From: Gulosibacter sp. 10
GTDB lineage: Bacteria > Actinomycetota > Actinomycetes > Actinomycetales > Microbacteriaceae
Length of the DNA stretch: 64,000 nucleotides
Direction of reading: 5' to 3'
Assembly: GCF_900163695.1 (NCBI RefSeq)
Contig: NZ_FUIC01000014.1
Coordinates: 1 to 64,000, forward strand
The translations under genes were made by a program, and so were the position numbers. A model generated the notes under the pieces. That model was not told the origin of the DNA. It did no database searches and saw only the letters and a program-made list of their open reading frames with translations. Below are positions 45,460 through 48,298 of the stretch, piece by piece. How positions within the stretch are numbered: position 1 is the stretch's first letter; each line of letters begins with the position of its first letter.

Positions 45460-46038
45460 TCAGTGCTCGAGCAGCGCGCCCAGGTCGACGTCGCGCCAGC
45501 GCTCGCCCATCGCGCGGATGCGCACGGCGCGGGGCTCGTCCTCGGGGGCGTCGGCTGCATCGGCTTCGTCGGCGGAGACAGCGGAGCCGGCAGCGGCAGA
45601 GGCGGCAACGGGCCCCTCCCCGCCGGCCCGCGGGCGGTCGATGACGACCTCGAGCCAGTCGTCCGCGAGCGCGGCCACGTACTCCGCCCCCCACTCGATC
45701 ACCGTGACCGAGGCCTCGAAATCCAGGTCGAGGTCGTCGAGCTCAAGCGCCGAGCCGAGCCGGTAGGCGTCCACGTGGATGAGCGCGGGCCCGCCCTCGA
45801 GCGAGGGGTGCGTCCGGGCGATCACGAACGTCGGGCTCGCGACCGTGCCCCGCACGCCCAGCGCCTCCCCGAGTCCCCGCACGAGCGTCGTCTTGCCTGC
45901 CCCGAGCGGCCCGGTGAGCACGAGCACGTCGCCCGCGCCCAGCAGTCCCGCGAGCCGGGCGCCGAACCGCTCCATCGCCTCCGCGGTGCGGAGCTCGCCC
46001 GCCGCCTCGCCCTGCGCTCCCCCGCCTGCCGTCGTCAT
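45460..46038 (-). CDS. tsaE: t6A ATPase TsaE
   Basis: The 192-residue P-loop ATPase has Walker A GPLGAGKTT (43-51), then SPTFVIARTHPSLEGG and IHVDAYRLGSALELDDLDLD, the standard TsaE block, and VIEWGAEY. It cycles the TsaBD complex. The C-terminal 50 residues are an Ala/Asp/Glu-rich extension beyond the usual 150 or so. ATG at 46038 overlaps the alr stop by 4 bases. Confidence 0.92.
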   Translation of the reverse strand: MTTAGGGAQGEAAGELRTAEAMERFGARLAGLLGAGDVLVLTGPLGAGKTTLVRGLGEALGVRGTVASPTFVIARTHPSLEGGPALIHVDAYRLGSALELDDLDLDFEASVTVIEWGAEYVAALADDWLEVVIDRPRAGGEGPVAASAAAGSAVSADEADAADAPEDEPRAVRIRAMGERWRDVDLGALLEH

Positions 46039-47894
46039 GCCTGCACCCCCTGGCTGCGGCTGCCGAAGCCGCGCGCGTCCACGTACGGCTCGCCGCTGTA
46101 GGCGCGCTCGACCCGCGAGCCGAGCGCGCCGCACAGCGCCTCCGCCGGCTGCCCCGTCCAGTCCGCCCAGTCGTGCAGGTCGGGCTCCCCGTCCCCGGAA
46201 CCCCACACCGTGACGAGCGCGCCGGGCCAGCAATCGATGTCGCCGAGGTCGACGACCACCTGGTCCATCGCCACGCGCCCCACCACGGGCACCGGGACGC
46301 CGTCCACGCACACCCGAGCGCGGCCGAACGCCGAGCGCGGGATCGCGTCCGCGTAGCCGAGCGGCACGAGCCCCAGCGTGGTCGGCGCCGCCGCGCGCCA
46401 CGCGTAGCCGTAGCTCACCGCCTGGCCGGGCTCGACGCGCTTGACGCCCAGCAGCTCGGTGTAGAGGCGGATCGCGGGGGCGCCGGCGGCGCGGTCGAAG
46501 CCGTAGATCGTCCGCGTCGCGTCGGGGGCGTCGGGCAGCAGCCGCGGATCGGATGCGCCGAGCTCGCGGAGCGCCTCGACCCCCGCCAACGAGCGCGCGA
46601 CGGGGCTCAGCCCCGCCTCGAGCACGAGCGGGAGCAGCACGTCGGCGCCGTGCCCGTACGCGTCCTCGCCGAGATCGACCGCCGCGCTCCAGCCGTCGAA
46701 CCGGGACCGGATGAGGTCGAGGTCGACGACGGCGCGCCGCACCGGGGCGAGCACGCCGGGCACCCGGTTGCCGTCCCCCAGCGCGAGCTGCAGCGGCTCC
46801 GGCTCGAGATAGGCCCGGTGGATGCGCCCGCTCAGCCGCGTGGTCACCTCGTAGTTGATGGTCCCGGCGGCAGCGGCCCAGTCGTCGGCCGTGGCCGAGC
46901 GATCCGGCGCGCGGTCGATGAGGACGACGGTGCGTTCGGCGCCGTCGTCCACGAGCTCGAGGGCCGGCGCCGCGGCGGGGTCGTCGGCGGGCTCGAGCAG
47001 CGTCCGGGACGGCTCGACGCGCACCGCGCGCCAGCGCTCGCCGCGGTCGTCCGCGAGCGCGGGCAGGTCGTGGAGGATGGGCGGCAGCCCGGCCGCGCTG
47101 CCGACGGGGGTGCACCACCCGGCGCCGGCCGTCTCCGCGTCCTCCGCCGAGAGCCTGCGGATGGGGGCGCGCAGCTGCAGCGCCGGGCGCAGCTCGATCC
47201 CCGGGTCCTGCTCGGGGCCGAAGGGCGAGAGGCCGTAGAGCCCGATCCCGAGCCGAACGAAGTCGTATCGCGCCTGGGGGTACTGCAGCGCCGCGCCCGT
47301 GGCGGCGAGGTGGCGCCGCTCGGGCTCGAGCCCCACCTCGTGCGCGAGCCGCCAGGCGCGGTCGAACTCGGCGATCTGCGCGAGGTCGGCGTCGGCCCCC
47401 GCGCCCGCGAGGTGGCTGAAGACCCCCGCGACGCGGATGCGCCCGGCCCGCTCGAGCTCGAGCGCCTGGGCGAAGAGCGCCCGCCAGTCGCAGGCCCGGG
47501 CGCCGTTGCGCCCCAGCCCCGTGTCGAGCTTGAGGTGCACGCGCGCCGGACGGCCCGCGGAGGCGCTGTCGCCGAGCAGCGCGAGCGAGTCGAAGGAGGA
47601 GAGGCCCACTTCGAGGCCGGCCTCGAGCACCGCGTCCCAGTCCTGCTGCGGCGAGTGCAGCCACGCGAGGATCGGGGCGGCGATGCCCGCGTCGCGGAGG
47701 GCGATGCCCTCGCGCGCGTCCGCGACGCCGATCATGGGCGCCCCGGCGCCCGCCACGGCCTGCGCGACCGCGAGCGCGCCGTGCCCGTACGCGTCGGCCT
47801 TGACCACGGGGACGATGTCGACGTCGAGCACCCGCCGGAACTCGCGGTAGTTGGCTCGGATGGCGTCGAGATCGATTTCGATGACCGGATTCAC
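46035..47894 (-). CDS. alr: alanine racemase, fused tandem form (N1-C1'-N2'-C2)
   Basis: This PLP enzyme interconverts L- and D-alanine for peptidoglycan. At 619 residues it is far longer than the usual 360-400. Residues 1-225 are an intact Alr barrel (Lys32 in VVKADAYGHG, Arg129 in LKLDTGLGRNG, VRLGIGLYG at 213-221). Residues 230-363 look like a worn Alr C-domain: the catalytic-Tyr motif is absent, but the closing block DDWAAAAGTINYEVTTRLSGR survives. Residues 387-446 resemble a second, shortened barrel N-terminus where Lys is lost (LGEDAYGHG). Residues 475-600 are an intact C-domain (Tyr495 in VSYGYAW; AMDQVVVDLGD). Because Alr active sites use Lys of one subunit and Tyr of the other, N1 and C2 could make one complete site. 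Confidence 0.88.
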   Translation of the reverse strand: MNPVIEIDLDAIRANYREFRRVLDVDIVPVVKADAYGHGALAVAQAVAGAGAPMIGVADAREGIALRDAGIAAPILAWLHSPQQDWDAVLEAGLEVGLSSFDSLALLGDSASAGRPARVHLKLDTGLGRNGARACDWRALFAQALELERAGRIRVAGVFSHLAGAGADADLAQIAEFDRAWRLAHEVGLEPERRHLAATGAALQYPQARYDFVRLGIGLYGLSPFGPEQDPGIELRPALQLRAPIRRLSAEDAETAGAGWCTPVGSAAGLPPILHDLPALADDRGERWRAVRVEPSRTLLEPADDPAAAPALELVDDGAERTVVLIDRAPDRSATADDWAAAAGTINYEVTTRLSGRIHRAYLEPEPLQLALGDGNRVPGVLAPVRRAVVDLDLIRSRFDGWSAAVDLGEDAYGHGADVLLPLVLEAGLSPVARSLAGVEALRELGASDPRLLPDAPDATRTIYGFDRAAGAPAIRLYTELLGVKRVEPGQAVSYGYAWRAAAPTTLGLVPLGYADAIPRSAFGRARVCVDGVPVPVVGRVAMDQVVVDLGDIDCWPGALVTVWGSGDGEPDLHDWADWTGQPAEALCGALGSRVERAYSGEPYVDARGFGSRSQGVQA

Positions 47895-47926: not shown

Positions 47927-48298
47927 CTACGCCCGCGACCTGTCCGGATCGCCGCGCTCGGCCACCACGAAGGCGGTCGCGAAGCTGCGATCGTGCGAGA
48001 GCGAGAGGTGCAGCTCGGCGACGCCGAGCCGGCCCAGCACCTCGCGCAGCCGCGGGCCCATCGCGAACTCGGGCGCCTGCAGGTGGTTGCGGCGCACCTC
48101 GAGGTCGAGCAGCGTCAGGCCGTTCAGGCCGCGGAGCGCCTTGACGGCCGCCTCGCGCGCCGCGAACCGGGCCGCGACCGAGGCGAGCGGGAGCTCGAGC
48201 TCGGCCGACGTGAACACGCGCCCGCGGAATCTCTCATCCGCGAGCGCGCGCTCCACCCGGCTCAGCTCGACGGTGTCGACGCCGATGCCGAAGATCAC
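47927..48298 (-). CDS. acpS: holo-[acyl-carrier-protein] synthase
   Basis: The 123-residue enzyme transfers 4'-phosphopantetheine from CoA to acyl carrier proteins. The Mg-binding and core motifs are present: GIGVDTVELSRVERAL near the start and RFAAREAAVKAL in the middle. LHLSLSHDRSFATAFVV closes the fold. It lies between glmS and alr in one leftward run. Confidence 0.9.
   Translation of the reverse strand: MIFGIGVDTVELSRVERALADERFRGRVFTSAELELPLASVAARFAAREAAVKALRGLNGLTLLDLEVRRNHLQAPEFAMGPRLREVLGRLGVAELHLSLSHDRSFATAFVVAERGDPDRSRA

Follow-up and report, generated by a model that had tools for sequence, protein, structure and literature searches.

A fused alanine racemase gene of Gulosibacter that probably encodes a one-site pseudo-heterodimer in a single chain

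The alr locus and the domains of the fused protein

The window, the 64,000-nucleotide stretch of DNA analyzed here, comes from the draft genome of Gulosibacter sp. 10 (55 contigs). On its minus strand, as for all features described below, lies a fused A-B alanine racemase (Alr) gene at 46035..47894. The gene starts with GTG and runs as one open frame of 619 codons and a stop; an earlier note on this DNA had described the 619-codon frame without giving the strand. Its upstream neighbor is acpS (47927..48298; TIGR00516), common to most alr-locus relatives, and the stretch downstream (45460..46125) holds tsaE (TIGR00150), which is common to alr-locus relatives. The protein scores above the curated cut-offs for TIGR00492 (261.1 against 168), PF01168 (195.9 against 24.1) and PF00842 (136.9 against 25). 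Pfam places Ala_racemase_N at residues 7–224 (E = 9.6e-58) and the best stretch of Ala_racemase_C at residues 475–599 (E = 3.7e-40), with a gap of 250 residues between the two matches.

These 250 residues are Alr too: they comprise the last part of a worn C-domain, followed by a second, shortened barrel from about residue 380. The A half opens with an intact PLP barrel (47160..47894; residues 1–245), in which 44 of 245 columns are invariant over 19 fused rows. It is followed by the worn C-domain (46806..47159; residues 246–363), where the catalytic tyrosine and the MD motif are unrecognizable and the GTINYE tail is retained. A linker of varying length with no invariant column (46758..46805; residues 364–379) leads into the B half, made up of the shortened barrel (46473..46757; residues 380–474) and an intact C-domain (46095..46472; residues 475–600; 31 of 126 columns invariant). 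In phmmer searches against solved structures, residues 5–245 and 473–601 align to Alr. Two of the three alignments listed contain a third stretch that corresponds to the C-terminal end of Alr: residues 321–363 against 1vfh (i-Evalue 1.5e-4) and, as a weak match, residues 334–366 against 1xfc (i-Evalue 0.029). The end of the worn C-domain is also matched by positions 85–127 of the Pfam Ala_racemase_C model (E = 4.8e-7). Homology to Alr in residues 230–475, on which the earlier note had staked its reading of the protein, is thus present in phmmer, Pfam and structure alignments alike.

The second barrel retains the DAYGHG motif, with Gly409 (46668..46670) where the PLP lysine would be. Despite the lost lysine, the AYG of this motif is kept in B (window positions 46650–46680; Tyr413 in 19/19 rows), perhaps in a structural or interface role.

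Division of the active site and the predicted fold

In solved Alr, Lys39 and the PLP ligands Tyr43, Ser204, Arg219 and Tyr354 are contributed by one subunit and Tyr265′ and Met312′ by the other, according to excerpts of PMC3485190 and PMC3245724. Equivalent residues (BsAlr numbering) were tallied in 19 intact fused proteins, ten from the Gulosibacter group, including that of the window, and nine from the Pseudoclavibacter group. The copy in genome G007, which spans two frames, was excluded from tallies and alignments, the fused protein of Pseudoclavibacter terrae (L085) from the full-length tally, and a reverse fusion (L024, see below) from the residue tallies.

The A half of the window protein carries Lys32, Tyr36, Arg129, His161, Thr199, Arg214 and Tyr348, and the B half Tyr495, Arg520, Met543 and Asp544. 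The PLP lysine, Lys32 (47799..47801; BsAlr Lys39), and Arg129 (47508..47510; Arg136) are conserved in 19/19 fused rows, as are Tyr43, His166, Arg219 and Tyr354; position 204 is Thr in 17 and Ser in two. The Tyr354 equivalent is Tyr348 (46851..46853), the PLP phosphate ligand, which belongs to the same subunit as Lys39 in the same two excerpted sources (PMC3485190; PMC3245724). In B, the second catalytic base Tyr495 (46410..46412; Tyr265′), Arg290 and the Met543-Asp544-Gln545 loop (46260..46268; Met312′-Asp313′) are each present in 19/19 rows. Neither Lys39 nor Tyr354 occurs in any of the 19 B rows, the place of the lysine being taken by Ser in 16, Thr in two and Gly in one. All 19 A rows have a gap at the Tyr265 position, and no invariant Tyr is found in residues 246–333. 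Given the subunit origins of these residues in solved Alr, one whole site is retained and the other has been lost on both sides. It also follows why the GTINYE block at the end of the worn C-domain is untouched, since its tyrosine is the PLP phosphate ligand of A's own site.

The catalytic Lys and Tyr and the PLP ligands of an alanine racemase are therefore all there, though split over two halves, and Tyr354, which is linked with alanine specificity, is kept as Tyr348 in 19/19 fused rows. The usual architecture, a chain that holds both catalytic residues and pairs with itself, is replaced by 619 residues in complementary halves; because of this the protein is filed as a variant of Alr and not as a plain member. 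The earlier note had recognized an intact barrel with Lys32 and Arg129, a worn C-domain without its Tyr motif that keeps the tail block, a shortened second barrel with Gly409 for the PLP lysine, and an intact C-domain with Tyr495 and Met543-Asp544-Gln545. Each of these parts is recovered by the domain matches and residue counts given here. Its broader reading, a tandem dimer with complementary degeneration, gains support from the one residue set split over the halves, its conservation in relatives and the selection on it in the closest pairs.

Conservation differs along the chain. Over the 19 fused rows, the share of invariant columns is 18% in the A barrel, 6% in the worn C-domain, 27% in the GTINYE tail, 11% in the short barrel and 25% in the B C-domain. 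For the two closest pairs (L028/L066 and L029/L059, respectively), dN/dS is 0.12 and 0.06 in the A barrel, 0.00 and 0.04 in the tail and 0.05 and 0.03 in the B C-domain; values of 0.24 and 0.28 were obtained for the worn C-domain and 0.24 and 0.18 for the short barrel. Both halves are under purifying selection in these pairs, and the segments that make up the one site are the most strongly constrained. L011/L012, a third pair at greater distance, is constrained as well, but the active-site parts do not stand out there: dN/dS is 0.25 in the barrel, 0.20 in the worn C-domain, 0.17 in the tail, 0.49 in the short barrel and 0.42 in the B C-domain. For distant pairs, ratios of 1 or more occur in several regions and are read as saturation.

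AlphaFold predicts the whole chain with a pLDDT of 91.9 and a pTM of 0.92, the latter being an indirect measure of half-to-half pairing in a program that may echo known Alr dimers by habit. In the full model, residues 3–365 match a single Alr subunit (8ahw_B; Z 30.6, rmsd 2.3 over 342 aligned residues), which places the worn C-domain as the C-domain of its own subunit. Predicted alone, the B half (residues 366–619) reaches a pLDDT of 87.0 and a pTM of 0.83 and aligns to a single Alr chain (1vft_A; Z 21.5, 227 aligned, rmsd 2.2) over chain positions 4–385, a large part of the barrel being absent. Among Foldseek rows, those of 602–615 columns, read by their length as the A barrel and B C-domain superposed on one Alr chain, have an rmsd of 16–18, against 2.8–3.7 in those of 366–401 columns. 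The B C-domain therefore does not lie in the cis position. The predicted folds of both halves fit a pseudo-dimer.

Relatives of the fusion, a second locus and the order of events

A survey of relatives, proposed in the earlier note, found the A-B fusion in 11/11 Gulosibacter-group genomes, ten of them in one frame and G007 over two, and in 9/9 sampled Pseudoclavibacter-group genomes, all in one open frame. In G007, a draft genome, the two frames (L014/L020, on G007:C26) are accompanied by no other C-domain Alr that was found. Among 398 sampled genomes of the family, the fusion is present in g1 (10/10) and g73 (9/9); the matches listed show it in no further genus. In a class sample of 282 genomes from other families, no match begins before position 20 of the B profile among the matches listed; both searches give best matches, so weak B-type proteins could be missed.

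In Agreia (g77), seven of eight sampled genomes encode the halves separately at this same acpS-tsaE locus, with gene A ahead of gene B. The start of B overlaps the stop of A by four bases at 7/7 loci (six by script, L034 from the bases directly), and none of the seven A rows has a Tyr aligned at position 265. Genes of the window's neighborhood, tsaE included, flank all 27 A-B loci with Tyr354 (19 fused, seven of Agreia and L088, a repeat record), 27 of 28 loci with a single full-length frame (the exception being L016) and 22/22 tandem loci (L158 and L203 being one pair counted twice). Four arrangements thus share the acpS-tsaE locus: one gene alone, two copies in tandem, a complementary pair that is unfused, and the fusion. 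Tandem full-length copies are seen at L203–L214, L216–L221, L097, L104, L119 and L158, in Herbiconiux, Clavibacter and other groups; copy 2 retains all catalytic residues and has Asp (20) or Glu (two) at position 354 in the 22 rows, L158/L203 again being one pair. Away from the tsaE locus, an Alr-like group (L086, L089, L093, L112, L130, L134 and L151) has His at position 354 in 7/7 and Phe in place of Tyr43 in 6/7.

Complementary pairs also occur at a second locus, in the order B then A, unfused and in many genera. The window-neighborhood genes flank none of the 47 second-locus loci, a count that includes the reverse fusion L024 and some repeat records. Of 40 loci selected by a match to the B profile, 39 carry a B frame with an A-type frame immediately after it (L182 and L186 are cut by a contig end); the remaining one, L203, is a tandem of full-length copies. 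The A start lies four bases before the B end in 35 of 39 pairs (37 second-locus loci together with L018 and L019). Second-locus A rows have Lys39 in 40/40 and Tyr265 in 0/40 (34 without an aligned residue), with Asp in 30 and Glu in nine at position 354 and one row not covered there, and second-locus B rows have Tyr265 in 41/41 and Lys39 in 0/41. Tyr265, Arg290 and Met312 are retained in all 67 B rows tallied. With L166 as the reference for 41 other loci and neighbor families named by Pfam on examples, gyrB-type frames are found around 38–39 of the 41, and GatD, MurT and sigA-like frames around 28–29.

The window's genome (G000) and G002 carry an extra pair. In the former this second-locus pair is unfused and lies at about 7886–9633 of L224 (G000:C9:3000-21000), with Asp at position 354 of A. 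An ATP-grasp-like protein, recognized by eye, follows this pair (L002, 69–1085, minus strand, on G000:C9), where L166 has GatD-MurT. A reverse-order B-A fusion, one frame of 595 residues, is present in G006 (L024; G006:C1:879251-882622); in an alignment made for it (A4), the rows of B fell on the half A, and this alignment was left out of the folding. Gulosibacter peptidoglycan contains DAB or D-ornithine, according to an excerpt of PMC6113628, which makes a D-diamino acid racemase a candidate role for the second-locus pair.

A joint clade of the fused A and second-locus A barrels is rejected (AU p = 3.6e-8, from quick trees of 63 rows with groups named after a first tree was seen), so that complementary decay would have occurred at least twice unless barrels were exchanged. 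Under the same conditions, the test does not reject a clade that unites fused A and Agreia A (p = 0.32), or clades of fused B with Agreia B (0.68), with tandem copy 2 (0.56) or with all B (0.45); deep support in the FastTree trees is weak. Since unfused complementary pairs exist, in Agreia at the same locus and at the second locus in many genera, decay as separate genes before fusion is probably the simpler and better-fitting order. Fusion followed by splitting, or independent decay in Agreia, are orders that the data would still accommodate. The earlier note had placed duplication and fusion ahead of reciprocal decay, and on this point it was probably wrong, because in Agreia the complementary halves are separate overlapping genes at the same locus and the second-locus pairs are unfused.

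Tentatively, and at somewhat less than even odds, it may be that Microbacteriaceae made obligate heterodimers of the Alr fold at least twice. One would be the alanine-type pair at acpS-tsaE, later fused A-B; the other the B-A pair with Asp or Glu at position 354, mostly beside a gyrB-type gene and GatD-MurT, which would make the D-Orn or D-DAB of peptidoglycan and was once fused in reverse.

Function, rival readings and meaning

The fused protein was the only Alr with a C-domain found in eight of 11 Gulosibacter-group genomes by a PF00842 search, which matched eight of 14 control genomes and missed Corynebacterium glutamicum, a species with a solved Alr (2dy3). Weaker matches to the N-domain, none better than E = 3.4e-19, also occur in every one of these eight genomes. 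D-amino acid transaminase (TIGR01121) exceeds its curated cut-off in 0/11 Gulosibacter-group genomes, with weak matches below it in eight, and in one of 14 control genomes. Taken together, the sole C-domain Alr and the want of a transaminase above cut-off make the fused protein probably the source of D-alanine in those eight genomes. It need not be so in G006, where a canonical Alr (L016, away from the tsaE locus) is present beside the A-B fusion (L006).

The explanation that we consider very probable is that the alanine racemase of this Gulosibacter-group actinobacterium has become a pseudo-heterodimer within one chain, with a single active site. From the observations above we infer a single intrachain site, the synthesis of D-alanine and an order of events. 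Half A would bind PLP through Lys32, Tyr36, Arg129, His161, Thr199 and Arg214, and its C-domain, though otherwise worn, would add Tyr348 of the tail as phosphate ligand. Across the inner interface, Tyr495 would come from half B as the second catalytic base, together with the Met543-Asp544 loop; B's barrel would be a scaffold only, and the site that paired B's lysine with A's tyrosine would be gone. In this history alr would have been duplicated at the acpS-tsaE locus, the overlapping copies would have decayed complementarily into an obligate heterodimer, and its halves would then have been fused in the Gulosibacter and Pseudoclavibacter groups.

Cis and trans working are not separable by sequence alone, and the linker is short and variable, so two 619-residue chains might pair with A of one facing B of the other, giving a domain-swapped dimer with two sites. 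We regard this as unlikely, as the single chain is predicted confidently without a partner (pTM 0.92). The model gives A a complete subunit fold, and A might act as an ordinary A-A pair with another base, leaving B merely a stabilizer or regulator; the lack of Tyr at 265 in A rows (0/19 fused, 0/7 Agreia and 0/40 second locus, mostly with nothing aligned) and the three residues that B keeps in all 67 rows make this very improbable. A substrate other than alanine is a slim prospect: Alr-fold enzymes do differ in substrate, and paralogues in the family have Asp or Glu at 354, but Tyr348 and the alr locus are retained and no other C-domain Alr was found in eight of 11 genomes.

The worn C-domain and shortened barrel, the G007 copy over two frames, the canonical Alr and reverse fusion in G006 and the extra pairs in G000 and G002 are what a decaying paralogue or pseudogene might look like, with D-alanine coming from elsewhere. 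This is hard to reconcile with active-site residues retained in 19/19 proteins, the low dN/dS in the two closest pairs, a single open frame in 10/11 and 9/9 genomes and the fused protein being the sole C-domain Alr found in eight of 11, and we give it very little weight. An assembly or frameshift artefact might be suspected in a draft of 55 contigs; with the fusion seen in 20 genomes from two genus groups, it deserves almost no credence.

With ordinary Alr (TIGR00492, PF01168 and PF00842; Mycobacterium 1xfc and 8ahw, Streptomyces 1vfh and 5fac), the window protein shares both domains, the full residues of one site, the acpS-alr-tsaE locus and the predicted folds of its halves. It differs in being one chain of 619 residues with unequal halves and one residue set, whereas Alr has two identical chains and two sites. 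Pepsin-like single-chain aspartic proteases, compared with the retroviral homodimeric ones, are likewise a duplicated and fused dimer with one site between the halves. In pepsin, each half gives one catalytic Asp, and neither is worn to the degree seen in the window protein. A catalytic paralogue that works with a dead one is known from Trypanosoma AdoMetDC and its prozyme, for which the title and abstract of PMC5201418 describe relief of autoinhibition; the window's B half would instead donate catalytic residues, and the halves are fused. As in prozyme-type systems, the gene for a dead partner is conserved next to that of the active half at the seven Agreia loci and at 39/40 of the second-locus sample. 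Lysine and broad-spectrum racemases (4dza and 4dyj), in the portion of PMC3485190 that describes them, have the same fold and draw Lys and Tyr from different subunits, but they are not fused and have Thr or Ala for Tyr354, where the window protein has Tyr. Among the papers listed in searches of one open-access library, none was, by title and abstract, on a heterodimeric, split or fused alanine racemase.

Alr is a standard homodimer and an antibiotic target. With living relatives that show the lone gene, the tandem, the separate complementary genes and the fusion at a single locus, a one-site single-chain form would allow each stage on the path from homodimer through heterodimer to fused enzyme to be tested singly. 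The second-locus pair is a testable candidate for the D-diamino acid racemase of these cell walls. If the single-chain reading is confirmed, one Alr site would suffice in vivo.
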